From Monoplex corrugatus (Eukaryota; Mollusca; Gastropoda; Littorinimorpha; Ranellidae), in assembly GCA_030674185.1 (NCBI GenBank), contig JAPXFY010000022.1, positions 37,499,040 to 37,563,039 of the forward strand: a stretch of DNA of 64,000 bases, in the 5' to 3' direction. Made by a program: the position numbers and the translations under genes. Shown here piece by piece: positions 7,113-37,245 of the stretch. The notes under the pieces were generated by a model. The model saw nothing but the letters and a program-made list of their open reading frames with translations, was not told the DNA's origin and did not search any database. Every line of letters starts with the position of its first letter. The stretch's first letter is position 1.

Positions 7113-7925
7113 AGGTTCAGGTTCCTATTACTTATAGCCCAGCCGACTACTAGAGCCATATCAGGGCTAACACCACGTTAAAAACAACACCCAAGTTCAG
7201 GTTCATATTGCTTATAGCCCAGCCGACAAGTAGAGCCATATCAGGGCTAATACCATGTTAAAAACTCCAAAGTACAGACAGGTTCATATTGCTTATAGCC
7301 CAGCCGACTATTAGAGCCATATCAGGGCTAACACCACGTTAAAAACAACACCCAAGTTCAGGTTCATATTGCTTATAGCCCAGCCGACAAGTAGAGCCAT
7401 ATCAGGGCTAATACCATGTTAAAAACTCCAAAGTACAGACAGGTTCATATTGCTTATAGCCCAGCCGACAAGTAGAGCCATATCAGGGCTAATACCATGT
7501 TAAAAACTCCAAAGTACAGACAGGTTCATATTGCTTATAGCCCAGCCGACTATTAGAGCCATATCAGGGCTAACACCACGTTAAAAACTCCAAAGTACAG
7601 ACAGGTTCATATTGCTTATAGCCCAGCCGACAAGTAGAGCCATATCAGGGCTAATACCATGTTAAAAACTCCAAAGTACAGACAGGTTCATATTGCTTAT
7701 AGCCCAGCCGACAAGTAGAGCCATATCAGGGCTAACACCACGTCAGAAACGACACCCAAGGTCGGTCTCATATTGCTTATAGCCCAGCCGACTACTAGAG
7801 CCACATCAGGGCTAACACCACGTTAAAAACAACACCTAAGTTCGGGCTCATATTGCTTAAAGCCCAGCCGACTACTAGAGCCATATCAATCAGGTTAAGA
7901 TAAAAGACAACAGTTAAAAACCATG
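7113..7925. repeat. Tandem array of 80-81 bp units derived from the N-LINE tail
   Basis: Ten units have the AGCCCAGCCGAC core starting at 7136, 7216, 7297, 7377, 7458, 7539, 7620, 7701, 7781 and 7861, a spacing of 80-81 bases. Two unit types differ in the spacer (ACAACACCCAAGTTC or ACTCCAAAGTACAGAC). The last unit runs into a normal N-LINE 3'UTR, so the array grew from one such tail. Confidence 0.92.
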
Positions 7926-8040
7926 CTCACCGTTAACCTTGCAAATGTAAAATGCAATTAAGAAAAACTCATACATAAAATCATATCAGGTGAAATCTAT
8001 TGATCTCTTGTAAAAACTGGAACATTGCATCAGGAGGGAG
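7926..8040 (-). mobile_element. N-LINE 3'UTR and last ORF2 codons (truncated copy)
   Basis: On the minus strand this reads the ORF2 end (FYKRSIDFT, stop) followed by the 3'UTR seen in copies B, D and E, then the tail array. It is 5'-truncated near 8035. Confidence 0.8.
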
Positions 8041-8049
8041 GTATCATTT

Positions 8050-8550
8050 ACCCTACTGTTACTGTTTAAAGCCCAGCCGACTGCGTAGAGCCATATCAGG
8101 GCTACAACCAGTTCAAAACACGCACAACACGTCAACAGAAATAAAAGGGAAAAGAAAATCACACATTTCAATTCATTCACGCACTCAATCCAAGGAGATG
8201 CCCCTGACCACTCCGTCCAACCCACCGCACAGAGGATACAAAAAACATACCTGAATACAAATTTAAACGTAACTAAGAACACCAAACCACACATAAAAAC
8301 GGGCCTAAACCACCAACCGCCTCCGCACATTTCACATCCCCAGAGACAAAAATGTACCCAACACACGTACCCAATTATCAATCCCAATCAAGCACATACA
8401 GGTCAATGGACCAGAAAATGACGGGGAAAAATGACAGAAAGTAAAGGAGGAAGGAAGAAACAGTCACAGAAATGAGGAAATTTCTAGCACAGAATTTCCA
8501 GAAAGTGGGGATACTATTTATACTGAAAAAAAAACCGGCATCTACACTTG
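8050..8550 (-). mobile_element. F2 element copy 1
   Basis: Member of the dispersed F2 family. The 3' end on the minus strand is the tail core followed by GGGCTTTAAACAGTAAC. The 5' end carries CAGTATAAATAGTATCCCCAC. No protein of the family is conserved between copies. Confidence 0.8.
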
Positions 8551-9299
8551 TGACTCATCTACCCTAATTTAGTCTCAAGCTTGTGATATACGCATCAAAA
8601 TATAATCACAAAAACATATGTTTTTCTTAGCCTAGAGTGAGTAAGCAACTTTTTTTTTAAATACAAAATATGGATGTTACCAAAACTTTAAGAATCCTTA
8701 GCAAAACGAAAACTCGTGTGGATCAATATGACAACCATTCTGAACAATTTATGTATATATATATAAGTTCCCATAAGTTTATAGAGTATTCTCTGCATTG
8801 CCATTTGACCAAAGGCTGCATCCAAAAAATGAATCATTTTAGAATTACTCGATTCTCACTGGATATGATCCCGTTTTACCGTAAACATTCTCAGTCATAA
8901 CACTTCTTGTTATTTTCAACAAACCAATTTAAGCTGCAATTTTTCAAGTCAGTCCCTGCTCTGACGTCACCCCACACCCTCATAATTCACAACCATACAA
9001 TTTGTGCAACAGTAGTAGGCCTATTATCAACGTAAGCACAAAATTTAGAGGCAAATCTTTCCAGCTGTCTGAAAAAAGTTTGATCAGGGGCAGTTTTCTC
9101 ACCCATGTAAAAGTTATTACTTCTACAAAATTCTGTACTCAAGTTTTGGGGAAAAAAAATCAGTCTTTTTACGTTCCATGATGTGCACTATTTCGTTCAG
9201 TAAAAACTATTACCTTGAATTTAGATTTACTTCTATTTTCAAAATAGTACAGTAACCAAGTAGAGTAGATAGAGAATTCTGTAAATATACATTATTATA
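8551..9299. other. AT-rich region with no recognised feature
   Basis: No match within the window, no microsatellite and no convincing coding signal. A 76-codon frame at 8670-8900 has no recognisable motif. Confidence 0.5.
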
Positions 9300-9529
9300 C
9301 TCACGCACGCACACACACACACACACGCACTCTCTCTCTCAATCTTACACACACACACACACTCTCTCTCTCATACACACACACACACTCTCTCTCCCTC
9401 ACACACACACTTTCTCTCTCTCACTCACACACACACTCTCTCTCTTTCACACACACACATACATACACACACACACTCTCTCTCTCTCCACAATACGCAA
9501 ATATACACATTATCTCTCTCTCTCTCACG

Positions 9530-9569
<40 letters not shown>

Positions 9570-9587
9570 CTCTCTCTCACACACACA

Positions 9588-9632
<45 letters not shown>

Positions 9633-10261: not shown

Positions 10262-10900
10262 TGATACTGTTATTCTTGTTTAAAGCCCAGCCGACTGCAC
10301 AGAGCCATATCAGGGCTATAAGCGTTTCAAAACACACACCAGAAAGGAAAAGAAAATTAAGTACACATATCAATGCATTCGTACACATAATCTAAGGACA
10401 TGCGCCTGACGTTGACCACTCCGTCCAATTTATCACACAGGGGATTTAAAAAACAATCCTAGATATAAATTTAAATATAAGGGCACTAAAACATACATAA
10501 AAATGGCCTAAATGACCTCAAATTGCTGCCGCATATCTCATTTCCCTAGAGCCAAAACTGCACTTAATCATGTACCCAGTTACCAATCCGAAGCGAAAAT
10601 ATGTAAGATTTTATCGAACACATACAGATGCTGGGGGCAACGAGAGATAGAGACAGATGGAAGTCCATGATCGCCAACGCCATGCAGCAGGGCATCTGAT
10701 GATGATGATGATGATACAGGTGAATAGACCAGCAAGGCAAAAAATGATTGGAAGAAATGACAGAAAGCAAAGGAATAAGGCAGAAGCAAAGGAATAAGGC
10801 AGAAGCAAAGAAAGTGACAGAAAATTTCTAGCACAGAATTTCCAGAAGTGGAGTTACTGTTTTTACTGAATGAGCCCCCGGCATCTTCACGGGGGTAACC
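10262..10900 (-). mobile_element. F2 element copy 2, with an inserted LINE fragment
   Basis: F2 family, tail core at 10285-10320 and TATA-containing end at about 10850-10900. A foreign LINE 3' fragment sits inside at about 10619-10717. Confidence 0.8.
10619..10717 (+). mobile_element. RTE-like LINE 3' end fragment
   Basis: Encodes the ATRDR.RWK(A/S)MIANAM end seen at 43040, 50700 and 51660, followed by a GAT repeat. It is the extreme 3' end of an RTE-like LINE inserted in F2 copy 2. Confidence 0.65.
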
Positions 10901-12045: not shown

Positions 12046-12208
12046 AGAAACGTAGGATTAAGTTCCCACCTTGATCAATAATGAACAAGTAAGAGCATTA
12101 TATTGCCACCACATAGCTAAACATTACCTCCCACGCAACAATCTGTAACTTCCCTCAACATTGTGTCAACGTATTAAGTTCATGTTGCACAGTAATGCCC
12201 AGCTGACC

Positions 12209-15175
12209 TTCCTTCCTTCCTTCTTTCCTTCCTGTCCCTTAACCCTATCCAGGGTCGTGGATGAACGTCGCACCGTCTGTCTCCACCTCTGTCTGTCATG
12301 AACAAGGGTCTGGGTCGTGGCAAAGCTTTTTCCTGTCCATTCGTCAATATTGTCCATCCACCTTTTTCTCTGTCTGCCTCTTTTTCTTCCTCCCTGGACT
12401 GTTCCTTGGAGTATTGTTTTTGATAGTCCGTTGGTTCTTGTCACGTGACCATACCACCGAAGTTTCCTTTTTCTTACTGTTGTCAGAAGGTTTTCATAGT
12501 TTTTGACATGCTGTGAAATTGTTCTTCGCACTTCCTCATTGGTAATGTGGTCTTTGTATGAGATGCCAAGCACTCTTCTAAAGCATCTCATTTCTACTGC
12601 CAGGATCTTCTTTTGCAGTTCTGCTGTTAGTGTCCATGACTCGCACGCGTAGAGAAAGATTGACAGGACCAATGCGTGCATTAGCTTCAGTTTGGAAGTG
12701 AGGGCGATGTTTTTGTCCCTCCAGATGGGCTTCAGCTTGGCTAGTGCTGCTGTTGTCTGTGCTGCTCTTGCAAGAACTTCGGTTTTCGATCCCTGTTCAC
12801 TGATAATGGCTCCGAGATATTTGAACTGAGCCATGGTTTCCAGCTCACTCCCGCTGACTGTAATCTTCTTTTCTATTGGTTTTGTGCTGTTTGTCATCAA
12901 CTTTGTCTTTTCGGCACTGATCTCCATGCCATATCTGGATGATGTCTCGTCCAGGTGTTTCACCAGGTTGGCAAGTTCGTCTTCATTTCCAGCCAACCAT
13001 CGATGTCGTCGGCAAATCTCAAGTTGGTGATTGTCCTTCCTCCAATACTGACTGAGCCGTGATGGTTTTCAAGGGCATCCGTCATAATGCGCTCAAGGAA
13101 GATGTTGAACAAGATTGGAGAGAGGAGACAGCCCTGGCGAACTCCAACTGATGTGTGAAACCAGTCCCCCACTGTGCCCTCAACAAGCATGCGCTGCTCG
13201 CTTTTGCGTATAGCTGTGTGATGGTGTCAATAAGCTTCCTTCCCATGTTGTACTTCCTCATGGTGGCCCACAGTGCTTCATGCCATACTCTGTCAAATGC
13301 CTTTTTGAAGTCGATAAAAACGTGGTAGATGTCCTGTTGGTGTTGGCTGTATTTTTCGCATAGGACTCTGAGATTGAATATTTGTTCTGTTGTGCTTCTA
13401 CCACTGCGAAATCCCGCTTGTTCTTCGGCAATGATCTCCTCTGCCTGTGGTTTCAGTCTGTTCAAAATGACTTTCAGCATCACTTTGCTAGCATGGCTGA
13501 TAAGGCTGATCGTTCTGTAATTCTGGCATAGTTATAAATTGCCTTTCTTGGAAAGTGTGATGATTAGTGACTGGGTCCAAGGTGTCGGCCATTCTCCCGT
13601 CTGCCAGATTTTGTTGCAGATTTTCCAGAGGATGTCAGTCACTGCCTCCCCTCCATGCTTGATCAGTTCTGCTGGGATGTTGTCCACTCCAGCAGCTTTT
13701 CCATCTTTCAGCGATCGTATTGCTGTTTCGACTTCTTCGCGTAGAATAGGGTGGTCATCGTCATTTGTTGATTCCTGGCATGTAAGGACAGTTGAGTCAC
13801 CCTGTGTCTGGTGGTTGTAGAGTTCAGAGCAGTATTCTGTCCATCTATGGATGATTTCTTTATCTTCTGTCAGGCACTTTCCTTGTTTGTCTTGAATGGT
13901 ACTGATCCTTGCCTGTCTCTGTGTGGTGAGTTCGTTCACCACTTTGTACGCCTTTATGTTGTTGTTCTTGTTTAGGCTGTCTTCTATTTCTGTGCATTTA
14001 TTTTGTATCCATCCTTCTTTGGCCTCCCTCATGCCTTTTCTGATTTCTTTGTTGATGTTTCTGTAGGCTAGGGCTCCGTCTGTTGTATTTTTGACTTTCT
14101 TGATTTCTCTTCTTTTGTCACACATTTCAAGGATTTCGTCTGTAATCCAGGGTTGGGTTTTCCGGCGTTGTTTTCCTAAGAGGTCATTTGCAGTCTCTGT
14201 CATCACTGTGTTAAACTTGGTGGTCATTTCCTCCGCAGTTTCTTCTTGTGTGCTCAATGCTGCAAACTTTCCGCCTATTGTTGCTTGGAAGGACTCTGCA
14301 ATGGAGGGGTCCTTGAGTCTGTCCAAGTTGAACTTCAGTCTGATGTTCTTGGGCTTCTTGATCTTCTTCAACCTGACCTTGAAGTTCATTATCACCAGGT
14401 CATGGTCACTACCCACATCTGCACCTGGAAATGTTCGCGTCTTGGCCTCTGCAGATTCCAGATCTAAAACGGATTGGGACCAAGATGTAGTCGATCTGGT
14501 GGTTGGTCCCATTTGGTGCATGCCAAGTCCAGCATCGTGACGCCTTGTGTTCACCAAGGGTGTTAGCCAGTGTCATGTTGTTGTATCCGGCGAACTCAAG
14601 TAGGCGCAGTCCTCGCTCGTTGGAAATTGCATTACAGGAGGGCCCACAATGGTTCTTCCAGTCTTTTAATGCATCAGCGCCCACCTTAGCATTCCAGTCT
14701 CCCTGAATGATAAGGATGTCTTTTTTGTCAACCTCGTCAATGATTTCTTGAAGTTGTGTGTAGAATTCCACCACATCCTCATCATCATAGTCTGTTGTCG
14801 GTGCATAGGTTTGTATCGCTGTGATGTTGAATGGTGCTGCTCGGAGGCGGATGGAAATGAGCCTGTTGGATATTGGGCGGCATCCGAGTATTGAGTTCTT
14901 GATGTTCTTATTGACAAGAAATCCTACGCCGTGGATGTGTTTTTTCAAGTCTCCACTGTAGTACAATACATGTCCTTCCTCAGTTTGGTGTTCTCCATCA
15001 TCTTTCCACCTGACTTCGCTCAGTCCAACTACATGCCAGGAATATCTTTCCAGCTCATGCGTAAGTTCGTGCAATTTGCCTGGCTGTGCAAGTGTTCTAA
15101 CATTCCATGTGGCGATGGTGAGAGTTTCTCTTCCTCGGATCTTTTTTGAAGAGGTTCCACCAGTCGCATACTTGT
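12209..15175 (-). mobile_element. RTE-like LINE inserted into an N-LINE tail
   Basis: A 2967-bp minus-strand LINE ends in a GGAA-type 3' repeat (12209-12235) and starts near 15175. The 9-mer CAGCTGACC lies on both sides (12200-12208 and 15176-15184). Outside it, the two flanks (12171-12208 and 15176-15212) join to form a normal N-LINE tail, so this is a clean insertion with a target duplication. The element is close to complete over its coding part. Confidence 0.85.
12260..15120 (-). pseudogene. Endonuclease-reverse transcriptase ORF of the RTE-like LINE
   Basis: The N-terminus (from about 15115) reads IATWNVRTL, then GLSEVRW, IQGDWNAKVG and NHQIDYIL, the APE endonuclease blocks of RTE-type LINEs. 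The RT follows: DGKAAGVDNIPAEL near 13700, AEEQAGFRSGRSTTEQI and VFIDFKKAFDRVWH at 13300-13450, VGVRQGCLLSPILFN and LRFADD at about 13010-13160. The C-terminal part has KLRWYGHVTR, GRQRKRWMDNI and a final DRQRWRQTV. The reading frame changes near 14500, 13190 and 12980, and a stop lies at about 13532, so it is not translatable as one protein. Domain content and order are those of a single-ORF RTE-like element; the exact clade is uncertain. Confidence 0.85.
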
Positions 15176-15216
15176 CAGCTGACCACTAAAGCCAAATCAA
15201 GGGTAACACTGTTCAC

Positions 15217-15898: not shown

Positions 15899-16067
15899 GT
15901 TTGCTAGAAGGTGGGCGGTCACACTTGTTTTGGATTGCGTACGAATGAATGAATGTTTATATCTGCGCTTGTTACAAGTGATGTTTATACTTCTGGTTAC
16001 AGTTTGTATAATTAGCACTGGTTACGAACACTGATGACATTCACTACAAAGAAGCGTCCCTCTCACT

Positions 16068-17040
16068 CCCTCACCTTATCCTTACAACCTGCTGCAAAAA
16101 CTTGACCCCTCCCTCACCCTATGCACCAACTGCAAAAACTTGACCCCTCCATCCCCTATGCACAAACTGCAAAAACTTGACCCCTCCATCACCCTATGCA
16201 CCAGCTGCAAAAACTTGACCCCTCCCCTCCCTCACCCTAGCCACCAACTGCAAAAGCTTGACCCCTCCCTCACCCTATGCACCTGCTGCAAAGCTTGACC
16301 CCTCCCTCATCCTATGCACCTGCTGCAAAGCTTGACCCCTCCCTCACCCTATGCACTAGCTGCAAAGCTTTGACCCCTCCCCTCCCTCACCTTATGCACC
16401 AGCTGCAAAGCTTGACCCCTCCCTCACCCTATGCACCTGCTGCAAAGCTTGACCCCTCCCTCACCCTATGCACCAGCTGCAAAGCTTTGACCCCTCCCTC
16501 ACCCTATGCACCAGCTGCAAAAACTTGACCCCTCCCCTCCCTCACCCTATGCACCAGCTGTAAAAACTTGACCCCTCCCCCACCCTATGCACCAGCTGCA
16601 AAAAATTGACCCCTCCCTCACCCTATGCCCAGCTGCAAAAGCTTGACCCCTCCCTCACCCTATGCACAGCTGCAAAAGCTTGACCCCTCCCTCACCCTAT
16701 GCACCAGTTGCAAAAACTTGACCCCTCCCCTCCCTCACCCTATGCACCAGCTGCAAAAACTTGACCCCTCCCCTCCTTCACCCTATGCCCAGCTGCAAAA
16801 TCTTGACCCCTCCCTCACCCTATGCACCAGATGCACCCTTTCACTCCCTTACCCTACCAGCTGCAAAGACAACCCTTTCACTCCCTCACCCTATCCATCA
16901 GCTACACAAACATCCACTCCCCTCCCTCCCCCTATCCACCAACTGTAAAAATTCAACTTTCACTCCCTCACCCTATCCACCAACTGTAAAACTTCTAAAA
17001 ACTCATTTTCACTCCCTCACCCTATCCACCAGCTGTGAAA
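16068..17040. repeat. Minisatellite of about 35-40 bp units
   Basis: About 25 units contain TTGACCCCTCCCTCACCC, TATGCACCAGCTGCAAA and variants. The motif is one arm of the TTAACCCTTTGACTCCC palindromic family, with the units at 16830-17030 closest to the original arm (CACTCCCTCACCCTATCCAC). Confidence 0.92.
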
Positions 17041-17074
17041 ATGTACATCTGGTTAGATTATGTGCGCGAATGCA

Positions 17075-17716: not shown

Positions 17717-17893
17717 AATTCATATTGCTTATAGCCCAGCAGACCACTACAGCCATATCAGGGCTAACACCACGTCAAAAACAACAACCCGTTAGAATAT
17801 AAAAAAACAACATAAAAACCATGCTCACCGTTAATCTTGCAAATCTAAAATGCCATTAAAGAAACACACGTAAAATTACATCAAGTGAAATCC
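17717..17893 (-). mobile_element. Extra N-LINE 3'UTR unit in tandem with copy B
   Basis: This repeats 17894-18078 almost exactly, so the 3'UTR of copy B is tandemly duplicated. Confidence 0.75.
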
Positions 17894-18078
17894 ATTCAAT
17901 TCATATTGCTTATAGCCCAGCCGACCACTACAGCCATATCAGGGCTAACACCACGTCAAAAAGAAAAGAACAACCCGTTAAGATAAAAAAAAAAAACCCA
18001 GATAAAACCCATGCTCACCGTCAACCTTGCAAATCTAGAATGCCATTAAAGAAAAGCACGTAAAATTACATCAAGTGA

Positions 18079-20521
18079 AATCTATTGATCTCTTGTAAAA
18101 ACTGGAATATTGCATCAGGAGGGACGTCTCGGAAGAGCTATTTAAGGAATCTGCCATGTAGTGCTTTTGTCTCACATCGTACAAGTCCCAGCAATCGAGG
18201 AGGTGGTGTCGGATTCTCAACGGCTCATTACACGGTATAACCATGGTGCTTCTTCATTTTTCAAAAGGTACGAGTGAGTGTAGGATGTGTGACCCGTGCG
18301 TAATCTACATAACACTGTCTCTTTCTTACGGTTTCCTGCAGCAGATGGGAGAATTTCTTTCAGGTTAGGGCGGATTTGGAAGAGTTTGTTATCTGTCTGT
18401 TTATTCCAATTCTCCTGCCACAGATTTCTTACGTAACTGTGTACTTTCGATTTGACATCTGTGTAAGGGATCACGGACATAGACATCTTTGTCATTGTAG
18501 CCTTCTTGGCCAGGTAGTCAGCCTTTTCATTACCTCCAATACAGACACGCAGACCCAAAGGAGGAGTCACTTTTGGATGTTTTTCAAAGTCACTTTCAAA
18601 TCTGGGGTTGAAGACAGTCGTAAGCTGGGTTCAGAGAACAGTTTCAAACAGAAATTTAAACTTAGTTTCAGTCTACGGTTGCTCAGGGAAGGCTCCCCTG
18701 CCTCTGCATACAAACTATACACAGGAGTTGTTCTGAATGCACCAAGACATAGGCGCAGCCCTTGATGGTGAATGGGATCAGGTGCCTGTAGGTACGACGC
18801 TCTCACAGACCCATATACTACACAGCCATAGTCCAGTTTAGAGCGAATTAAAGCTCTGTACAGGTGTAGTATCGTTTTCTTGTCGGCGCCCCAGTCTGTA
18901 TGAGCTACAACTCGAAGAATATTCAGAGCTTTCTGGCAAGATGTTTTTAGATGTTGGATATGACTGAGAAAGTTCAACTTTTCATCAAAAATCAAGCCCA
19001 GAAGTTTAGCTTCTTTTACAGTTGGAATGATGCACTTTCCCAGACGAATTTCTGGAGCGGCAAAGAATTCTCGCAGGTTATGAAAGTGAATACACTGTGG
19101 TTTGGTTGCGGAAAAGGTAAAGTCATTTGTCTCTGCCCACTGCTGGATCTTATCTACACACAACTGCAGCCGTCACTGAACGCCTGCATAGAAGCTTCCA
19201 CTTGCGTAAACTGCAAAATCGTCCACAAACAGGGAGCAGTCCGAGCCCTGCTGTACTGATTTGACTATGTTGTTGATCTTGATACTGAACAGCGCAGGAG
19301 AGAGAATGCTCCCTTGTGGTACACCCAGCTCTTGCTCATGGATGTCTGACAGAGTAGTACCAACCCACACTTGAAACTGCCTATCGGCCAAAAACTTTTG
19401 GATAAACGTAGGTAGGTGACCCCTAAAACCTAATTCGTGTAGATCCATAAGAATTCCTGATTTCCAAGTGGTATCATAGGCTTTCACTAAATCAAAGAAG
19501 ATAGCCACTACATGCTGTTTCTGCAGAAATGCATTATGGATGGTTGTTTCAAGACGAATTAAATGATGTACTGTGGAATGGTGCTTGCGAAAACCGCATT
19601 GTTCTTTGGCCAAGATGCCGTCATTCTCCAGTTTCCACATCAGTCTCTTACTGACCATTTTCTCAATCACTTTGCACAGACAACTGGTTAGGGCTATTGG
19701 CCGGTAATTGGATGGATTGGATACATCTTTTCCAGGTTTAGGTATATTGACAATCAGGGCTTTCCGCCATGAGGGAGGAAAGAATCCTGTCGTCCATATG
19801 TAATTGTACACTTTCAACAGAATGTCCAAACTCTTTTCCAGACGATGCTTCACCAGTTGATAATGAACTTTATCCAAGCCAGGAGAAGAGTCAGAGCAAG
19901 TCACAAGAGCGTCTTTTAATTCTCCTAATGTCAGTGGAAGATTGTACTCTTCTGTGTTATCAGAGACGAGGTTACAAGCTCTCTTTTCTTTCACCGATTT
20001 GTATTTTCCGAAAGACCACCGATTTATTTGCTGAGGAAGAGTTCTTTTCGATGGTAGACACCAACATGTTACAGACGGCTTTTTTGTCAGAAATCAAACA
20101 ATCTGACACTTTCAGATGGTCAACAGAGGGACAGGTGTTTTTTCCCTTTAATTTGTTTGATAATTTTCCAGACTTTCTTTTTAGGAGTTCGGGATGTCGG
20201 TTTCGAGCAGAAGTTTCTCCAGGACTGTTGTTTGTTTCTTTTAAAGATGTATCTTGACTTTGCTCGTAGTTTTTGATGAGCCCGAACATTGTCCACCGAT
20301 GGACTTTGAAACACGCGACGTTGAGCTTTCTTGCGTTTTTGTTTTATCCGTTTACATTCTACAGTAAACCACGGAGTTTTAGGCATGTGCGCTTTCTTTG
20401 ATGATGTGGGAATTGCTCGTTTGGCACAGCTCAGTATGATCTGTGTCAGAGTGTTTACTGGATCATCACTCTGCAGGACCCTTTCTTCCTCCAAATCACT
20501 CCAGACAGCCCTCTCGAACAA
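18079..20521 (-). pseudogene. N-LINE copy B ORF2, pre-RT, RT and C-terminal region
   Basis: The RT lies in one long frame (19994-19173) with all core motifs: SSPGLDKVHYQLVKH, NYRPIALTSCLCKVIEKMV, QCGFRKHHSTVHHL, FFDLVKAYDTTW (first Asp), GVPQGSILSPALF and LFVDDFAVYA (catalytic FVDD). The thumb and connection continue in 19163-18567 after a frame change. Most of the RNase H between AYKSFY and GGNEKAD is missing: near 18543-18567 the sequence jumps from the segment before RNase H to its closing GGNEKADYLAKKA. The C-terminal tail (18570-18217) ends in a conserved VHSYVRNLWQENWN and a Cys-poor segment, then RSIDFT and stop. So this copy keeps the polymerase motifs but lacks the RNase H core. Confidence 0.8.
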
Positions 20522-20528
20522 ATCCCAG

Positions 20529-20745
20529 ATACCTCAGCACAAGGTCTCTTCCTGGAAGATGTCTTCTCTGATTTAAACGATGGTTCTCCGACATATATCC
20601 ATCCTGCAAAAGGTACACTTTCCTGTTTGGATTTATCAGTGTGTGATGCTTCGCTGGTTTTGGACTATGAGTGGAAATCAAATCAACCAGTTCTTATGTA
20701 ACAGCAACAGATGGAGGGAGGTACACTATCTCAAAGCGCTCCGGT
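20529..20745. other. Scrambled inverted duplication inside N-LINE copy B
   Basis: 20529-20685 is the reverse complement of the endonuclease segment at about 20823-20972, and 20683-20735 repeats 21035-21090 in direct orientation. The two arms carry different small deletions relative to copy A. Confidence 0.75.
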
Positions 20746-24957: not shown

Positions 24958-25010
24958 GCTAAGTGGCTCATCACATCATGCACTATGGTGCCCTATTTTT
25001 TAAAGGTTCC

Positions 25011-25560
25011 AGGTTCATACTGCTTATAGTCCAGCCGACTACTAAAGCCATATCAGGGCTAACACCACGTCAAAAATGACAACCAGGTTAAGAAAGAAGA
25101 TAACAGTTAAAAACCATGTTCACTCTTAACCTGACAAGTCTAAAATGCAATTAAAACTATAAACTATACTCAGACGTAAAATCATCAGCTGAAATCTGTT
25201 GATCTCTTGTAAAAACTGGAAAATTGCATCAGGAGGGACGTCTCGGAGAGGTTTTTTAAGGAGTCCGCCGTGTAATGCTTTTGTCTCACATCGTATAAGT
25301 CCCAGCAATCAAAGCGGAGGTGTTTTTTTAAAGGTGTGACCAAATGCAGAATGTATGACTAATGTGTAGCCGTGTGTAACACTGACTCTTTCCCATTATT
25401 CCCAGGGATACACTCGATCTCTTTACGGTCAGGGCAGATAAGGAAAGGTTTGTTGTCATCTGGTTGTTCCATTTCTCTTGACACAGATTTTTCACCGACT
25501 TTGGAATTTAAATATCAGATCTGTGTAAGGGACAAAGGATTTAGACAAAGTGCCCAGCGA
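25011..25560 (-). mobile_element. N-LINE copy D, diverged 3' end
   Basis: Tail core at 25028-25068, 3'UTR, then ORF2 C-terminal codons readable on the minus strand to about 25560 (the DLYDVRC and SIDF-type segments). More diverged than copies A-C. It lies about 50 bp beyond the 5' end of copy B in the same orientation. Confidence 0.75.
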
Positions 25561-26221: not shown

Positions 26222-26868
26222 TTAACATCATTAACGTTTAAAGCCCAGCTGACTGTGTTAAGCCGCATCAGGAAGACAACCCTCTCAATACACACACAAC
26301 ACCTCGACGACCCTATCAGGGCAATAACTTTCAAAACATACACAATACTTCAACAGAAATAAAGAAGGAAAAGAAAATTAAGTACACATATCAATGCATT
26401 CGCGCACATAATCTAAAGATATGCCTCTGGGTTGACCACTCCGTCCAATTATCACACACACACACACAAAACATACCTGAATATAAATTTAAACATAACG
26501 CAGGACACTGAAACATACATAAAAACTGACCTAAACTACCCTAAAAATTGCTTCCACATATCTCATTTCCACAGAACCAGAAATGCACATTATATAATCA
26601 CCAGTCCTAAGAGAAAGTACGAAAGACTTTATCGAACACATACAGGTGAATGGACCAGCAAGGCCGAAAATGATAGGAAGAAATGACAGAAAGCAAAAGA
26701 ACAAGGCAGAAAAACAAGGCAGAAAAACAGAGTGACAGAGTTCAGTTCATAATGCTTTTAGCGCATCTGACAGTGACAGAAAAGAGGGCATTTCTAGCAC
26801 AGAATTTCCAGAAGGTGAGGATACTATTTATACCGAAAAGCGCCTCCGGCATCCCCACGGGATGTACT
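26222..26868 (-). mobile_element. F2 element copy 3
   Basis: Tail core at 26238-26275 and TATA-containing 5' end (ACTATTTATACCG on the plus strand) at about 26820-26865. A short CA run lies inside. Confidence 0.82.
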
Positions 26869-27057
26869 GATCTCTTGTAGAAACTTGAAAATTGCATATA
26901 GATGAACACTTATGCTTTTACCCCTTGTGTACAATGCTGCGATTTCACAGGTCTCACTTCTGTTGGCATTGCTGTACAAAGACTGCTACTCTAGAGAAAC
27001 AGATGCATACAGAAAAAGAATGAAAAAAAACTACAGGAGAAAAATGGGTGGCGCTGG

Positions 27058-27560
27058 GTTCAGGTTCATATTGCTTATAGCCCAGCCGACTTGCTAGAGC
27101 CAGATCAGGGCTAACACCATGTCAAAAACGACAACCCGATTAAGATAAAAGACAATTAAAAACCATGCTCACCATTAACCTTGCAAGTTTAAAATGCAAT
27201 TAAAGAAACTATACTTAGACGTAAAATCATATCGGGTGAAATCTATTGATCTCTTGTAAAAACTGGTAAATCGCATCAGGAGGGACGTCTAGGATGGGGT
27301 TCTTTAAGGAGTCCACCAAGTAGTGCTTTTGCCTCACCTCGTACAAGTCCCAGCAATCAGGGAGGAGGTGTCTGATGCTAACGGCTCGTCACACGGTGGC
27401 GCTGCACTAAACCGCCAATGCTCTGCTAGAGGAAAGCAGTCCCAATTTTAAATACTCTGACCAAAAATATATCAAAGACAAATGTTTTAAAAATCATTTC
27501 CTTCCAAGCCTAAGTTTGAACTTTGGATTTCGGATCCTTGTAAAAGATGAAGGACTTAGG
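27058..27560 (-). mobile_element. N-LINE copy E, 3' end
   Basis: Tail core at 27076-27116, 3'UTR and ORF2 C-terminal codons, truncated near 27560. Diverged beyond 27400. Confidence 0.75.
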
Positions 27561-27654: not shown

Positions 27655-28290
27655 CTGTTATTGTTTAAAGCCCAGCCGACTGCGTAGAGCCATATCAGGG
27701 CTACAACCGCTTCAAAACATGCAAAACTTCAACAAGAATATGAAAATTAAGTGCGCATATCAATGCATTCGCGCACATACTTTAGGACATGCCCCTGGCG
27801 TTGACTTCTCCTTCCAATCTATCGCACAGGGGATTAAAAAAAAACCCACTGAATACAAGTATAAGCGTACCTAAGGACACTAAAACATATATGAAAACAG
27901 GCATAATTACCTAAAATTGCTTCCGCATATCCCACCTCCCTAGAGCCAAAAATGCACTGAATACATGAACACAAGACTTTATCAAACACATACAAGTGAA
28001 TAGACCAGCAAGGCAGAAAGTTCAGTTTAGTTCAGTTCATACTGCTTATAGCCCAGCCGACTACTAGAGCCACATCAAGACTAACACCACATCAAAAAGA
28101 AAAGAACAACCCGTTAAGATAAAAGACAACAATTAGCAAGGCAGAAAATGATAGAAAGAAATGACACAAAGCAAAGGAACAAGACAGAAACAGAGAGTAA
28201 AACAGTAAAGAGGACATTTCTAGCACAGAATTTCCAGAGGGTGGGGATACTATTTATACTTAAAGAGCCCCTGGCATCCCCACCACTGGT
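27655..28290 (-). mobile_element. F2 element copy 4, with nested solo tail
   Basis: F2 with tail core at 27668-27705 and TATA end near 28240-28285. Interrupted at 28020-28134 by an N-LINE solo tail. Confidence 0.85.
28020..28134 (-). mobile_element. 115-bp N-LINE solo tail with 13-bp target duplication
   Basis: The 13-mer AGCAAGGCAGAAA stands on both sides (28007-28019 and 28135-28147), and F2 continues normally across it. The insert is the tail core plus part of the 3'UTR, starting with CAGTT-type terminal units. Confidence 0.88.
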
Positions 28291-28754: not shown

Positions 28755-31575
28755 ACGTCTCGGAAGAGCTCCTTTAAGGAATCTGCCGTGTAGTGCTTTT
28801 GTCTCACATCGTACAAGTCCCAGCATTCGAGGAGGTGGTGTCGGATGCTCAACGGCTCATCACACGGTATCCACCATGGTGCTGCTTCATTTTTCAAAAG
28901 GTACAAGTGAGTGTAGGATGTGTGACCTGTGCATAATCTACATAACACTGTCTCTTTCTTACAGTTTCCTGCAGCAGATGGGAGGATTTCTTTCAGGTTA
29001 GGGCAGATTTGGAAAAGTTTGTTATCTGCCTATTCATTCCAATTCTCCTGCCACAGATTTCTTACGTAACTGTGTACTTTCAATTTGACATCTGTGTCAG
29101 GGATCAAGGACTTAGACATCTTTGTCATGGTAGCCTTCTTGGCCAGGTAGTCAGCCTTTTCATCGCCTCCAATTTCAACATGGCTAGGAATCCAGGCAAA
29201 AACAATCTCGTAACCTTCATTTGCAAGAGTAGAATACAGTTCAAAGAACTTCACAAGTTCAGGGTGACTAATGTTTCAGCAAGTGATTCCATGCAAAGCA
29301 GAAAGGGAGTAAAAAAAAAAAAGAAAGAAAAAAGAAAAAAAGGAGAAACTCTTTGTGTTTGGATTGGGACACCATTTTTAGTGCCAAAACCAGAGCAGTC
29401 AGTTCAGCAGTGTAAACAGAACTTTCAGATGGAATACGTTCTGAAAATGCTCCATTGGGAATCTCGGAGCAGAAGGCAGCGGCAGCAACACCTTCATCAC
29501 ACTTGGACCCATCAGTGAAGATTCTGCAGGATGATGGAGATTTTTCATACAATTCCGCATAAAACGATTTGTACGCCAGTGCACTGGTGTTGTTTTTATG
29601 GAAGGAAGCAAGATCAAAACAAACCTTCGGTGTTTTCAACGTCCATGGTGGACTATCTGGAAACTTGGAGAAGTCGTTAACAACTGCTAAATTTATATCT
29701 GCCTTTTCCAAATAGGGACGGATACGCAGCCCCAAAAGAGGAGTCACTTTTGGATGTTTTTCAAAGTCACTTTCAAATCTGGGGTTGAAGACACAGTCGT
29801 AGGCTGGGTTTTCCGGTTCAGAGAACAGTTTCAAACAGAAATTTAAACTTAGTGTCAGTCTACGGTTGCTCAGGGAAGGCTCCCCTGCCTCTGCATACAA
29901 ACTATACACAGGAGTTGTTCTGAATGCACCAAGACATAGGCGCAGCCCTTGATGGTGAATGGGATCAAGTGCCTGTAGGTACGACGCTCTCGCAGACCCA
30001 TATACTACGCAGAACATAGTCCAGTTTAGAGCAAATTAATGCTCTGTACAGGTGTAGTATCGTTTTCTTGTCGGCACCCCAGTCTGTATGAGCTACAACT
30101 CGAAGAATATTCAGAGCTTTCTGGCAAGATGTTTTTAGATGTTGGATATGACTGAGAAAGTTCAACTTTTCATCAAAAATCAAGCTCAGAAATTTAGCTT
30201 CTTTTACAGCTGGAATGATGCACTTTCCCAGACGAATTTCTGGAGCAGCAAAGAATTCTCGCAGGTTATGAAAGTGAATACACTGTGGTTTGGTTGCAGA
30301 AAAAGTGAAGCCGTTTGTCTCTGCCCACTGCTGGATCTTATCTACACACAACTGCAGCCATCGCTGAACACCCGCATAGAAGCTTCTACCTGCATAAACT
30401 GCAAACTCGTCCACAAACAGGGAGCAGTCCGAGCCCTGCTGTACTGAGTTGACTATGTTGTTGACCTTGATACTGAACAGTGCAGGAGAGAGAATACTCC
30501 CTTGTGGTACACCCAGCTCTTGCTCATGGATATCCGACAGAGTAGTACCAACCCACATTTGAAACTGTCGATCGGCCAAAAACGTTTGGATAAACATAGG
30601 TAGGTGACCCCAAAAACCCAATTCGTGTAGATCCATAAGAATTCCTGATTTCCAAGTGGTATCATAGGCTTTCACTAAATCAAAGAAGATAGCCACTCCA
30701 TGCCGTTTCTGCAGAAATGCATTACGGATGGTCGTTTCAAGACGAATTAAATGATGTACTGTGGAATGGTGCTTGCGAAAACCGCATTGTTCTTAAGCCA
30801 AGATGCCGTCATTCTCCAGTTTCCACATCAGTCTCTTACTGACCATTTTCTCAATAACTTTGCAAAGACAACTAGTCAGAGCTATGGCCGGTAATTGGAT
30901 GGATTGGATACATCTTTTCCAGGTTTAGGTAAACGGACGATCAGGGTTTTCCGCCATGAGGGAGGAAAGAATCCTGTCGTCCATATGTAATTGTACACTT
31001 TCAACAGAATTTCCAAACCCTTTTCCGGAGATGCTTCACCAGTTGATAATGCACTGCATCGAAGCCAGGAGAACAGTCACAGCAAGTCACAAGAGCGTCT
31101 TTTAATTCTCCTAATGTCTCTGGAAGATTGTACTCTTCCGTGTTATCAGAGACGAAGTTAGAAGCTGTCTTTTCTTTCACCGATTAGTGTTTCCGAAAAC
31201 CGCCGATTTATTTGCTGAGGAAGAGTTCTTTTCGATGGTCGACGCCAACGTATTAGAGACGATTTTTTTGTCAGTAACCAAACAATCTGACACTTTCAGA
31301 TGGTGAACAGAGGGGCAGGTGTTTTTCCCTTTAATTTGTTTGATAATTTTCCAGACTTTCTTTTTAGGATTTCGGGATGTCAGTTCCGAGCAAACGTTTC
31401 TCCAGGACTGTAGTTTGTTTCTTTTAAAGATGTATCTTGACTTTGCTCGTAGTTCTTGATGAGCCCGAACACTGTCCGCCGATGGACTTTGAAACACGCG
31501 ACGTTGAGCTTTCTTGCGTTCTTGTTTTATCCGTTTACATTCTAAAGTAAACCATGGTGTTTTAGCCATGTGCAC
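28755..31575 (-). pseudogene. N-LINE copy C ORF2 without endonuclease
   Basis: The pre-RT linker occupies 31575-31177. The RT is split: the finger region (31170-30700) has frame breaks, while 30696-29965 carries FFDLVKAYDTTW, GVPQGSILSPALF and LFVDEFAVYA. The last is a substitution of the second Asp in the catalytic FVDD motif. RNase H (30017-29268) keeps TDGSKCDEG and AELTALVLA, but an A/G-rich insertion at 29310-29345 destroys the next motif. The closing GGDEKADYLAKKA follows in 29254-29030. The C-terminal RRLCTGHTSYTH segment is at 28948-28712. The endonuclease is absent entirely, so this copy could neither nick its target nor polymerise. Confidence 0.85.
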
Positions 31576-31584
31576 TTTCTTTAA

Positions 31585-32668
31585 AGCGCGGGCTTAGGCC
31601 CTTTAAGTGCTGGAGGAGTGTTCATTATTTCCACCAACATTACTTTTGGCCCTCCTCCACTTACTGTTGAGCTGCTCCCGGCCGGCCGGGGCGGGAGGGT
31701 GGGTTTACCAGGGAGACTGGGTTTCCCTGGGTTGCCAACATTGGCTGCTTTTGGCTGTTGAAAAGCCTGTGAAGCAGTGGGTTTAATGCCCCCGCTGAGG
31801 GCCTTTGTGTGTTGCACTGTTTCCAAATTTGACTTGTTCCAGGTTAGAAACGTTTGACAGGCTATGGACACTTGACTGTCTTGACTACAGACGTATAACT
31901 TTTGGTCGATGAGCTGTTGCCCTCCACCAATCTTTTGTCTTCGTGGAAAAGTTGGGGTTTTTTGCCGTTTTCAGTCGTTGTATTGCTTGTTCCTTTTGCC
32001 ATACGGGGCAATCTTTCGAGGATGATGGATGGTCAGCTCCACAGTTTATACAATTTAGTGGACTTTCACATCTCCCCTCATGTGCCTCCTTGGCGCACAT
32101 GGCACTTTTCGGTTTCCGAACACCTGTCCTTGACGTGTCCAAACTTTTGACATCGGAAGCAGCGCATTGGTGATGGCACATACAATGACACTTTCAAATA
32201 GCCAATTGGGGTATACCTGGAGAACAAAATGTTAGGAACAGTGTGTTTGTCAGGATTTTTTCAGACCCTTTTCAGAACATGGCCCGGCGTACCTCTACAA
32301 TGCCCTGGGTTTTCAGTTCCGTCCTGATCTCCTCTTCCAACACACCTCTCAGTCCTTTGTGTGGTGTAACTTTTATTGTACTGTCAACAAGTACCGATGC
32401 TCTAAGCAGGCGATCTGCTTGCTTGTTGTCTTTACATTCCACAAGGTATTCTCCGTTTCGCAGCTTTTTAATTGTTTTGGGGTTTCCTATCAGGGCTTTA
32501 AATCCCTTCTGTATGGCAAAGGGATTCAGTTTCCATATTGGTTTTTCCTCATCAATGCCGGTCACCACCAACCATGCTGCCCAAAAACCTGTTTCCTGTC
32601 TAGTTTCTTCCTCGGAATCCGAGTTATATTCGTTGTCTCTTTTCTTTTTTGTTTGTTGGGTTTAGACA
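31585..32668 (-). pseudogene. N-LINE copy C ORF1
   Basis: Three frames cover the gag-like protein: 32571-32272 (TGIDEEKPIWKLNPFAIQKG to VEVRRAMF), 32181-31885 (zinc knuckles) and 31871-31581 (C-terminal extension ending PALKGPKPAL). Knuckles two and three are intact (CAKEAHEGRC, CINCGADHPSSSKDC), while the first is lost to a frameshift near 32150. At its 3' end ORF1 is joined at 31580 to sequence that lies about 980 bp further on in copy A, which defines the endonuclease deletion. Part of the segment between VRCSELRG and EEEI is also deleted. Confidence 0.82.
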
Positions 32669-33172
32669 TGAGCGTAGGCTCAACGATGGCAGAAACTTCT
32701 CGGTCACCCCCAGAGAGCTGCTGTGCTGGGTAAGGGGCAATGGATGGCCAATCTCTTGGCGTCCGTCCGCCTGGAACCGTCCCGCATGAAACCAGACAGT
32801 GTACTTTAACAACTGACTATCGCACAGCCAGCCATCCCCTCGCCAAGTACCTCAAGCTTGGGATTACGGGTTGCTTACGAAAACCACTCGTGAACATGAC
32901 GATGGGAATGAAGAAAATGGAGATGAGGGTGGGACCACGCTTTGTCTCATCCCTCCCCCTTGACCTGTCCGACATGGGTAACCCTACCACGGGCATTATT
33001 ATATTATGCTGTTAAGAGTCCAGTCCACGTCAACTGCCTTGGTTATTGGGACTGTCATAGAAAAAACACACAGCTTTCTAGCAAGTAGCCCCTGTTGGCA
33101 TAGCTCAAGGGATTATTGGGACGTCAAGCCCCACGACCATGGCAAGGTGGCAGTCCCATCCGGGCGGAAGGT
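32669..33172 (-). promoter_or_regulatory. N-LINE copy C 5'UTR
   Basis: Homologous to the 5'UTRs of copies A and B, including the GC-rich 5' terminus. Confidence 0.6.
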
Positions 33173-33189
33173 CAGCGTAATGTTTATAC

Positions 33190-33415
33190 TGTTCTTTAGG
33201 AGGCCACCGTGTAGTGCTTTTGTCTCACATCGTACAATTTCCAGCAATCAAGGAGGAGGTGTCTCTGATGCTCAACAGCTCGTCACAAGGTATACACCAC
33301 GATGTTACTTAATTTTTTTTAAAGGTACGAATGAGTGTAAGATGTGTGACCCATGTGTAACCTACACAACACTGTAATGTTTATGCTGAAATTACCCTCA
33401 GCATCCCCACTAGCG
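33190..33415 (-). mobile_element. N-LINE ORF2 fragment joined to an F2 5' end piece
   Basis: 33190-33376 matches the ORF2 C-terminal region (as 18150-18330). 33377-33415 matches the F2 5' end (TTTATGCTGA, CAGCATCCCCAC). Confidence 0.65.
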
Positions 33416-33602
33416 ACGATACCAGGATCGTTCCTTGCAAGACAGCCTGCAGAACGATCTTACCATCCCTAAGGATTATGGAGAGTACTGGAAGAACCTT
33501 CCATCTGTTTTGATTGGTGTTGTGTGTCGTCTGATCTTTGCGACTACCATAGTGGTGCGTATGATTTGCTGTCAGCTTCATGAAAATGCTATCAAACAAC
33601 AG

Positions 33603-34500
33603 CTCAGTTCAGTTCAGTTCAGTTCATATTGCTTATAGCCCAGCCGACTACTACAGCCATATCAGGGCTAACACATATAACCAAGTTTAGGTTCACATTG
33701 GTTATAGCCCAACCGACTACTAGAGCCATATCAGGGCTAACACCACGTTAAAAACGACACCCAATTTCACGTTCATATTGCTTATAGCCCAGCCAGCTGC
33801 TAAAAGCATATCAGGGCTGAGACTGCATTAAAAACATCCAAGTTCAGGTTCATATTACTTACAGCCCAGCTGATTAGTAGGGCCATAACAGGGCTAACAC
33901 CACTTCAAAAACGAAAACCCGGTTAAGATAAAAGACAACAGTTAAAAACCATGTTCACCGTTCACGTTCTTATTGCTTATAGCCCAGCCGACTACTAGAG
34001 CCATATCAGGGCTAACACTATGTCAAAAACAACAACGGGGTTAAGATAAAAGACAACAGTTAAAAACCATGCTCACTGTTAATCTTGCAAGTCTTAAATG
34101 CAATTAAAGAAAAACAGCCGTAAAATCATATCAGCTGAATCTTTTGATCGGTGTTGTGTGTCGTCTGATCTTTGTGGCAACCACAGTGCTGGTGATGGTT
34201 TGCAGTCAGCTTCATGAAAATGCTGCCATCAAACAACACTTCAATTCATACTGCTTATAGCCCAGCCGACTACTAAAGCCATATCAGGACTAACACCACG
34301 TCAAAAGTGACAACCATGTTAAGATAAAAGACAACAGCTAAAAACCATGCTCACCATTCAAGTTCATACTGCTTATAGCCCAGGCCACTATTACAGCCAT
34401 ATCAGGGCTAACACCATGTCAAAACAAAACTGGTTAAAATTAAGATAAAAGACAACAGTTAACCTTGCAAGTCTAAAATGCAATTAAAAAAAACCCATAC
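33603..34500 (-). repeat. Cluster of N-LINE solo tails
   Basis: Tail cores begin near 33638, 33707, 33787, 33866, 33978, 34260 and 34380, most with part of the 3'UTR. The first is preceded by four CAGTT units. Unlike the array at 7.1 kb, the spacing is irregular, and a segment at 34145-34240 repeats 33510-33600. Confidence 0.85.
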
Positions 34501-34509
34501 TTGGACGTT

Positions 34510-35058
34510 ATTGATACTGTTATTGACATTGTTGCCTAAAGCCCGGCCGACTCCGTAGAGGCATATCAGGGCTATAACCGCTTCAAAACATACAAAACTT
34601 GAACAGGAATATAAAAAAAGAAAAGAAAAGAAAATTTAAGTATACATATCAATGCATTCGTGCACACAATCTAAAGACATGCCCCCGGCGTTGACCACTC
34701 CGTCCAATTTATCGCACAGGGGAGATTTAAAAAACACACCTGAATACAATTTAAGTATACTTAAGGACATCAGAACATGTATAAAAACAGGAATAAATCA
34801 CCTAAAATTGCTTCCACTTATCTCACCTCACTAGAGCCAAAAAAGCACTTAATACATGTACCCAATCATCCATCCTAAGAAAAAGTACGCATGACTTACA
34901 GGTGAATGGATCAGCAAGGCAGAAAATGATAGGAATAAATGACAGAAAGCAAGGGAATGAGGTAAAAACAAAGAGAGTGACAGAAAAGAGGAAATTTTTA
35001 GCACAGAATATCCAGAATACTATTTGTACTAAAAGAGCTCCCGGCATCCCCACGGTGG
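34510..35058 (-). mobile_element. F2 element copy 6
   Basis: Tail core at 34543-34580; 5' end with CTATTTGTACT at about 35020-35058 (TATA motif mutated). Confidence 0.8.
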
Positions 35059-35215
35059 TATCCATGCAGTGAGGAAGGATTTATCAAAATGTCTTCTGCA
35101 TGAAACGAGCCAAAAATATGCAGCAAACGCATGGATACCGTGTGCGGACCTTTCTTTGAATTCTATTCATTCCACCAAGTTCAAGTTCGTGTTGTTTACG
35201 GCCCGGCCGTCTCTT

Positions 35216-36432
35216 CCACCAGTTGTATCATCTCCATTCTACAGTTGGATCATCTCCTACAGTTGTATCATCTCCATTCTACAGTTGGATCATCTCCTAC
35301 AGTTGTATCATCTCCATTCTACAGTTGGATCATCTCCTACAGTTGCATCATTTCCATTTTACAGTTGGATTACCTCGAATTCTACAGTTGGATCATATCC
35401 ATTTCACCAGTTGGATCGTCTCCATTCTACAGTTGGATCATCTCAAATTCTACAGTTGGATCATCTCCATTCTACAGTTGGATCATCTCAAATTCTACAG
35501 TTGAATTATCTCCATTTTACAGTTGGGTCATCTCCTTTCTACTGTTGGATCATCTCCATTCTACAGTTGGATCATCTCGAATTCTACTGTTGGATCATCT
35601 CGAATTCTACTGTTGTAGATCATCTCCATTCTACAGTTGGATCATCTCAAATTCTACAGTTGGATCATCTCCATTCTACAGTTGGATCATCTCAAATTCT
35701 ACAGTTGAATTATCTCCATTTTACAGTTGGGTCATCTCCTTTCTACTGTTGGATCATCTCCATTCTACAGTTGGATCATCTCGAATTCTACTGTTGGATC
35801 ATCTCGAATTCTACTGTTGGATCATCTCCTTTCTACAGTTGGATCGTCTCCATTCTACAGATCGATCATCTCCATTCAACAGTTCGATCATCTCGAATTC
35901 TACTGTTGGATCATCTCCAACAGTTCGATCATCTCGAATTCTACTGTTAGATTATCTCGAATTCTACAGTTCGATCATCTCGAATTCTACTGTTAGATCT
36001 CGAATTCTACAGTTGGATCATCTCCAATTCTACATTTGGATCATCTCGAATTCTACTGTTGGATCATCTCCATTCTACAATTGGATCATTTCGAATTCTA
36101 CAATTCTAAAGTTGGATCATCTCCATTTCACCAGTTGGATTATTTCCATTCTACAGTTGGATCATCTCCATTCTACAGTTGGATCATTTCGAATTCTACA
36201 ATTCTAAAGTTGGATCATCTCCATTTCACCAGTTGGATTATTTCCATTCTACAGCTGGATCGTCTCTTTCCTACAGTTGGATAATCTCGAATTCTACAGC
36301 TGGATCGTCTCTTTCCTACAGTTGGATCATCTCAAATTCTACTGTTGGATCACCTCCATTCTACAGTTGGATCATATCGAATTCTACAACTGGATCACCT
36401 CCATTCTATAGTTGGATCATCTCGAATTCTAC
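35216..36432. repeat. 22-bp minisatellite
   Basis: About 55 units of TCTACAGTTGGATCATCTCC and variants (AATTC or CATTC junctions, CTGTT or CAGTT). Since 22 is not divisible by 3, the unit reads through in all three frames, giving long spurious open frames of the type HSTVGSSPFYSWIISILQLD. Confidence 0.95.
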
Positions 36433-36517
36433 ATACACTCTAAGAAGCTTGACTTTTTTGGTGAGACCCCCTGGTGGAGTTGATGCTGCCAGTCTTATTA
36501 TTATTATTATCATTATT

Positions 36518-36632
36518 ACTTAAAGCCCAGTCGAATGTGCAGCACAGTATCAAAGGCCATAAATATTGCAAAATGTACGTAACTCCTCGATGACCTGGAA
36601 CAAACTGGAAAAGAAAATTAAGTACACATAGC
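36518..36632 (-). mobile_element. F2 element copy 7, truncated
   Basis: Only the tail core and adjacent 90 bp are present; an N-LINE tail (36633-36680) follows. Confidence 0.65.
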
Positions 36633-36680
36633 GAGTTCATATTCCTTATACCCCAGCCGACTACTGGAGCCATATCAGGG

Positions 36681-37245
36681 CTGTTGTTATTGTTTAAAGC
36701 CCAGCCGACTGTGTAGAGCCATGTCAGGGACATAACAGCTTCAAAACATACAAAATTCAACAGGAACAAAACAAACAAACAAACAAAAACGAAAAGAAAA
36801 GAAAATCAAGCACACATATCAATGCATTCGCGCATCCAATCCAAGGACATGCCCCTGGTGTTGACCACTCCTTCCAATTTATCGCACTGGGGATTTAAAA
36901 ACCACACCTGAATATAAATATACCTAAGCACACCAAAACATAGACAAAAACAGCCATAAATACTTAAAGCTCCTTCTGCATATCTCACCTCCCTAGAGCC
37001 AAAAATGCACTGTATACGAGTACATGTACCCAATTATTCAGCCAAAGAAAAAGTACGCATGACTTTATTGAACACATACAGGTGAATGGACCAGCAAGGC
37101 AGAAAATGATAGGAAGAAGTAACAGAAAGCAAAGGAGGAAGAAAGAAACAAAGGAGTGACAGAAAAGAGAAAATTTCTAGCACAGAATTTCCAGAAGATG
37201 GAGATACTATTTATACTGAAAGAGCTCCCAGCATCCCCACAAGGC
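36681..37245 (-). mobile_element. F2 element copy 8
   Basis: Full-length member: tail core at 36698-36735, TATA end (ACTATTTATACTG on plus strand) at about 37207-37245. Confidence 0.82.

Follow-up and report, generated by a model that had tools for sequence, protein, structure and literature searches.

A 64,000-nucleotide stretch of the genome of the gastropod Monoplex corrugatus (contig JAPXFY010000022.1, positions 37499040-37563039; hereafter the window) raises the question of how F2, a short repeat family found in it, is mobilised, and in particular whether the enzyme comes from N-LINE, a long interspersed nuclear element (LINE) with an RNase H domain that is present in the same window. 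The first-pass annotation had proposed that one 3' stem-loop core ends three kinds of element, namely N-LINE, F2 and 'solo tails', and that the N-LINE reverse transcriptase (RT) moves the latter two in trans. Judged by the sequence comparisons described here, F2 and N-LINE are discrete families with a short 3' end in common, and we consider it reasonably probable that an RT from the N-LINE lineage mobilised F2.

The core was found to be abundant well above chance. Its left half, TAGCCCTGATATGGCTCT, has 36 matches in the window at up to three mismatches (shuffle mean 0.03), and its right half, GTCGGCTGGGCTA, has 39 at up to two (shuffle mean 0.44), so that the roughly 40 copies noted at first pass are borne out, with less than one expected. 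When the halves were joined across a loop of 2-9 nucleotides (nt), 37 cores were obtained, nine of them in a single array of 80/81-bp satellite units (7135-7814) and the other 28 outside it; cores beyond the range covered earlier lie at 6849, 37688, 39328, 50443, 52465, 52619 and 62776. In the whole assembly (3,018,142,536 bases, to which all genome counts refer), the left 18-mer occurs 59,839 times at up to one mismatch, and its reversed control not once. The outer and inner arms of the core are complementary, as had been described. The downstream tails also differ between the families as reported: the N-type tail is TATAAGCAATATGAAC(TGAAC)n in most window tails, and mostly (TGAAT)n at those N-LINE loci that most resemble the query, the copy in the window, whereas the F2 tail is TTTAAACAATAAC(AATAAC)n, with an ACGCA loop and GGGCTTTAAACAATAAC as its hallmark. 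Genome-wide, 18,164 F2-type tails (25-mer) and 11,484 N-type tails (28-mer) were counted, both at up to two mismatches. A primer for a transcript of the snail Nassarius, given in PMC7761612, has 15 nt in common with the core, which may be chance.

The extent of the homology between the two families is central to the argument. Comparison of the F2 consensus with the three N-LINE copies of the window (A, B and C), of which only B retains the 3' end while all three have 5' ends, gave one convincing match, at consensus positions 484-542 (59 nt, 83% identity, E 1.5e-11); the next best was a T-rich 24-mer (E 0.007), and the others were short, T-rich or weak. It had been reasoned at first pass that homology reaching far beyond the core would make F2 a simple internal-deletion derivative of N-LINE; since the match is convincing only over these 59 nt at the 3' end, F2 does not appear to be one. 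Within the core, the two consensus sequences are identical at 18 of 18 left and 12 of 13 right positions, while flanks and loop differ. This comparison, and that of the loops, set aside sampled locus L015 and the unlabelled window cores. The commonest loops are of 4 nt (AGTG, AGTA) in N-labelled cores and of 5 nt (ACGCA, GCGCA, ACACA, GTGCA) in F2-labelled ones. Likeness solely at the 3' end, between a LINE and an otherwise unrelated non-coding family, is the usual sign of a pair formed by a short interspersed nuclear element (SINE) and its LINE. Of the features looked for in such a pair, 3'-confined homology is present, as are target-site duplications (TSDs) and end-joined tails; a common terminal repeat, which is usual in such pairs though not required, is absent.

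That F2 is a retroposon follows from its ends. Its 551-nt consensus was built from 25 near-complete copies of 480-680 nt, with L001, L008, L035, L042, L052, L054 and L058 set aside. It begins with a C-run followed by GTGGGGATGC, contains a 10-bp inverted repeat around AGTATAAATA, and is non-coding, the longest stop-to-stop frame being 84 amino acids. Heads of F2 number at least 26,802 in the genome (45-mer, up to three mismatches). The 5' end is fixed: 29 of 44 sampled core-bearing loci (two of them N-type; L015-L029, and L050, in which no core was found, were left out) match the reference copy of the window, marked in Table 1, from position 46-57, with GTGGGGATGC (GTGGGG) at 51. The direct repeats on either side of F2 were measured in 28 copies and have a mean length of 6.6 nt, compared with 3.6 nt for 756 swapped pairs; they reach at least 7 nt in 13 of the 28, against less than 2% of swapped pairs; seven of the copies have repeats of 11-13 nt, and none of the 13 is a window copy. 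In 12 of these 13 the repeat sits 4-7 nt outside GTGGGG, and the gap is C-rich. It is to be noted that a first test, allowing up to 3 nt between repeat and GTGGGG, gave no excess, and that the gap was widened to 10 nt, in both the element and the control set, after the C-runs had been seen, so that the test is post hoc in that respect. The near-identical duplicates L035, L042, L054 and L058 were dropped from it, and for the copy at 27655-28283 in the window the tail used in scoring was that of its N-LINE insert, not its own. These TSDs and the mostly untruncated 5' ends indicate that F2 copies were retroposed. The four duplicates resemble one another, with two F2 heads and a variant of the core; they probably reflect either segmental duplication or a family of dimeric F2 elements.

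At least three C were present in the 6 nt before GTGGGG in 22 of 28 copies, compared with 64 of 1,015 background hexamers; overall, some 4-6 C precede the first element base in both F2 and N-LINE, and in F2 they lie outside the TSD. No A box with fewer than two mismatches was detected in the consensus by motif scan, which is a weak test, and B-box-like 9-mers occur solely with one mismatch, at 175, 179 and 383. There are 13 T-runs of at least 4 nt, which would hinder RNA polymerase III (Pol III). One full F2 copy gave no Rfam match at E<=1, and the search for tRNA or Rfam heads found nothing. F2 is thus described here as a SINE-like, short, non-coding, high-copy retroposon, a classification by sequence features; the strict SINE definition asks for a Pol III promoter or a head derived from tRNA, 5S or 7SL RNA, which F2 does not display. 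The label 'TATA-bearing', which it had been given at first pass, says little about transcription, because the TATA-like box lies at about +32, where it would be too far inside to promote full-length RNA from the usual RNA polymerase II (Pol II) start.

The candidate helper was characterised in the same manner. Window self-comparison delineated its three copies, all on the minus strand (Table 1). Pfam matches comprise an endonuclease (PF14529/PF03372) and RNase H (PF00075) in copy A and RT (PF00078) in copy B, so that an apurinic/apyrimidinic (AP)-type endonuclease, RT and RNase H are all present, which we take to be the I-superfamily architecture. An RNase H domain is expected of I-group LINEs. 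By domain content, N-LINE thus appears to be an I-superfamily-type LINE; none of the 120 homologues listed, of 1,122, bore an informative family name, and Rfam returned merely two weak sub-gathering matches in the 5' region. The 5' ends of all three copies follow a C-rich run by eye. When the RNase H part was searched against the genome, 14,686 first-look candidates and 144 matches were obtained, the best 30 of which were read; the core was located 397-541 nt downstream of the RNase H match in 23 of these 30. By coordinates, N-type tails also follow two more distant matches, one of 66% identity at a distance of 561 bp and one of 73% at 526 bp. Copy A shows no core within 4 kb past the window edge, and its 3' end looks lost.

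The solo tails had been counted as a third kind of element, but those that were studied read as ordinary 5'-truncated insertions of N-LINE or F2, with TSDs visible by eye in three cases; the idea of a third family was replaced by 5' truncation, and two kinds of element remain. Two N-LINE tails lie inside F2 copies, which places some N-LINE activity later than the insertion of those copies. Both tails have also been amplified as satellites, that of N-LINE in the window and that of F2 as 97-bp units in sampled locus L015 (1410-2985).

On the favoured reading, the RNA of F2 would carry the shared core and AATAAC repeats at its end, and the RT of the N-LINE lineage would bind it at the core. The LINE endonuclease would then nick the target, where reverse transcription would be primed, the product being an F2 copy with a short TSD; early stops of the cDNA would leave 5'-truncated copies, the shortest of which would be solo tails. 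We infer the core as the recognition site, the N-LINE enzyme as the one acting on it, and any RNA structure involved. The part of the first-pass proposal that concerns F2 is retained as the best explanation of the 59-nt shared end, on indirect evidence, whereas for solo tails there is no need to assume a separate family mobilised in trans.

Several results weigh against this reading. First of all, seven of the best 30 N-LINE loci, namely window copy A and six others, lack the core, three of the seven also being without a 3' UTR (untranslated region) match. The terminal repeats are unlike (TGAAC/TGAAT in N-LINE, AATAAC in F2). Hybrids are rare beside the pure tails counted above: a combination of N loop and F2 tail has 17 genome matches, and one of N flank and F2 loop has 28, all with two mismatches. 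These counts cover two types of hybrid, and the mixed solo core at 6849 is known besides. This coupling of loop with tail is consistent with two lineages that have long been apart and may each have had a helper of its own. The mean distance of F2 copies to their consensus is 0.10, i.e., about 10%, compared with about 3% in the sampled young N-LINEs, both samples being biased. In sampled loci L014 and L033 the F2 match is limited to the last 90-140 nt, and another body is possible; among F2 copies of the window, the TSD test covered five, whose repeats do not exceed 6 nt; and RTE-like LINE coding pieces were found upstream of the core in six F2 loci, in the same orientation in four (L009, L013, L039, L047).

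The strongest rival, a tangible though lesser possibility, is that F2 was moved by a different LINE, one that ends in a loop of the F2 type with AATAAC repeats and is today rare, old or extinct. That helper would be N-LINE's sister element or, with lower likelihood, one of the RTE-like LINEs, and the tail common to N-LINE and F2 would then be shared by descent from a common LINE ancestor. The linkage of loop and tail types and the unlike terminal repeats speak for it, as do the age of F2, which by a rough measure lies between the old and young N-LINE sets, and the RTE-like pieces upstream of some F2 copies. Of the four same-orientation RTE-like loci, two seem to end in GAT repeats of their own (by eye), one reads as an independent F2 insertion and one is ambiguous; the pieces are either chance neighbours or a sign of another helper. 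An F2 tail belonging to the RTE-like LINE of L013 was considered and rejected, as the sequence reads as a 5'-truncated F2 with its own imperfect duplication (by eye). The labelled cores argue in the other direction. Among 133 sampled cores, labelled by BLAST of the 400 nt upstream (L016-L029, which form one array, and L064 were left out), 72 were F2, 44 N and 17 neither, 13 of the 17 lying in two arrays. Of the 55 with a 5-nt loop and a GGGCTT-type ending (outside L015), 54 were labelled F2, a few labels resting on short matches, one was unplaced (54322) and none was N-LINE; five F2-labelled cores with a 4-nt loop and a GGGCTA-type ending are N tails near F2 copies. Upstream of the core in 44 sampled core-bearing loci, no match to N-LINE protein was found. 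Moreover, pairs are known that have a LINE tail in common yet unlike terminal repeats (SINEX-1_CR and SINEX-2_CR, in Table 2 of PMC3747384).

The proposal that the N-LINE-lineage RT moved F2 can be carried further, to a version that we hold doubtful: F2 may be a very high-copy Pol II-type SINE-like retroposon without tRNA, 5S or 7SL ancestry that mimics its helper LINE at both ends, by the core at the 3' end and the C-run at the 5' end. The C-run, followed by the 10-bp hairpin of F2 around a TATAAATA, would then constitute a second signal for the same machinery, in finishing or jumping at the 5' end.

An origin of F2 by internal deletion, from the 5' and 3' ends of one LINE, is very improbable. 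Window positions 33207-33420 join an F2-like head (~36 nt) directly to N-LINE C-terminal sequence, which favours such an origin, as does the C-rich run that precedes both families; however, comparison of the F2 head with the three N-LINE copies gave no significant match, and the junction occurs once in the genome, this being the window's own, so that a fusion family of F2 head and N-LINE was rejected. Least credible of all is spread of the core mainly as DNA, by satellite amplification or gene conversion rather than RT recognition, which the tandem arrays of both tails would suggest and which the dispersed copies with TSDs, variable-repeat tails, a fixed 5' end and 5' truncations contradict.

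Whether the core folds as an RNA hairpin is a separate matter. In the N consensus cores the lowest-energy structure is the nested hairpin (-12.9 kcal/mol), which in the F2 core comes close to the minimum (-11.7 against -11.8 kcal/mol), but its stability lies only 0.5-1.0 standard deviations below dinucleotide shuffles (z -0.5 to -1.0). RNAalifold kept eight pairs, none of them changed on both sides. Pairing amounted to 90.4% in 34 aligned core sequences, against 90.6% when shuffled, and to 89.9% against 89.7% in 104 distinct cores, satellite cores being left out, among which four both-side changes were seen. For the outer pair formed by the third base of the left arm and its partner, genome counts covered three classes, with 11,874 intact, 710 single changes on the left and 40 double changes. 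Much of the variation in the arms must be decay of dead copies. An alternative fold of two hairpins scored better in the 34 sequences through a single family-separating column pair alone; with that pair left out it was no better in the 104 cores, and it is about 5 kcal/mol weaker. Thus neither the covariation check nor the shuffle-stability check gave a signal for the hairpin claimed at first pass, and since the arms are nearly invariant, the covariation test has little power; the hairpin is unproven, which amounts to absence of evidence. Considering that the conservation between families covers unpaired bases too, recognition of the sequence alone would explain it.

Sharing the 3' end of a LINE is a recognised way for short retroposons to gain access to LINE enzymes, and PMC3747384 lists 58 SINEs with such ends, including Gecko and SINE2-1_Acar on I and Vingi LINEs, with no mollusc pair and few I-group LINEs among them. 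The pairs UnaSINE1/UnaL2 of eel and TS/RTE of tobacco resemble F2/N-LINE in combining a short element and a LINE through a common 3' region (~100 nt in TS) followed by short repeats (PMC3747384). LINEs with such partners are termed stringent. The terminal repeats of F2 and N-LINE, for their part, are unlike. Most pairs listed there have tRNA heads and a few have 5S or LINE 5' ends, whereas the F2 head has no such match. Gecko of mosquito, paired with I-74_AAe and relatives, has an I-named partner, like the RNase H-bearing N-LINE; both Gecko and SINE2-1_Acar, paired with Vingi-2, are tRNA-headed, which F2 is not (PMC3747384). Closer in head type are EhLSINE/EhLINE and SINEX/RandI, SINE-like elements with a LINE tail for most of which the promoter is entered as 'Unknown', although they belong to an amoeba and a green alga and to other LINE groups; SINEX families, like F2/N-LINE, combine a common LINE tail with unlike terminal repeats (PMC3747384). 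The PcH-sat satellite of Patella, with a segment like a Nin-SINE (PMC11121367), is likewise a gastropod satellite derived from a retroposon segment, as are the 80/81-bp and 97-bp arrays, but in a different element, unit length and species. No description of the F2/N-LINE pair was found in the literature, although an earlier account is possible, most likely in the survey of gastropod and bivalve SINEs (Matetovici and others, 2016). F2 and N-LINE are probably a newly found SINE-like/LINE pair of an already known type. If so, they extend the known helper/parasite pairs by one, probably molluscan, whose helper is an RNase H LINE; the tens of thousands of copies in one genome form a natural data set for asking which 3' bases are required by a LINE RT, and helper specificity becomes directly testable through the differences in loop and tail between N-LINE and F2.

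Table 1. Features located in the window, in window coordinates
Feature	Position	Strand	Remarks
N-LINE copy A	1-5061	-	5' end at 5061 after TCCCCCC; RNase H 47-886, endonuclease 2578-3198; runs off window
N-LINE copy B	17900-24952	-	Interrupted by + strand LINE ~21129-22895; RT 19173-20093
Core at 3' end of N-LINE copy B	17913-17947	-	Second tail at 17732-17766
N-LINE copy C	28755-33178	-	Fragmentary; without own 3' UTR; self-comparison
5'-truncated N-LINE 3' end ('solo tail')	25010-25323	-	Homologous to copy B 17900-18209
5'-truncated N-LINE 3' end ('solo tail')	27057-27397	-	Homologous to copy B 17900-18236
N-LINE tail inside F2 copy	28020-28134	-	13-bp duplication TTTCTGCCTTGCT on both sides (by eye)
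5'-truncated N-LINE 3' end	33960-34149	-	Self-comparison
Solo core	6849-6884	+	F2-type loop and AATAAC tail but GGGCTA ending; 10-bp duplication CAGCTTCCTA (by eye)
Satellite array, 80/81-bp units from N-LINE 3' ends	7113-7888	-	Self-comparison
F2 copy	8056-8547	-	Self-comparison
F2 copy with insert	10262-10900	-	Self-comparison
F2 copy	26241-26858	-	Very short N-LINE tail within it near 26775, with an apparent duplication CTGTCACT (by eye)
F2 copy	27655-28283	-	Interrupted by N-LINE tail 28020-28134
F2 copy	34510-35053	-	Self-comparison
F2 copy, full length	36685-37240	-	Reference copy
F2 copy without head	39310-39724	-	Self-comparison
F2 copy without head	52605-53070	-	Self-comparison
LINE coding region	12166-15185	-	RT and/or endonuclease matches (Pfam)
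LINE coding region	20833-22617	+	RT and/or endonuclease matches (Pfam)
LINE coding region	59652-61040	-	RT and/or endonuclease matches (Pfam)
Tc1-like transposase remnants	39967-40916	-	By eye in list of open reading frames
Long tandem arrays	16058-17041, 35214-36433, 44500-47100, 56052-59650		Self-comparison; some with long open frames

Comparison with viral contigs gave no match. The long open frames that run through tandem arrays of the window are probably not genes.

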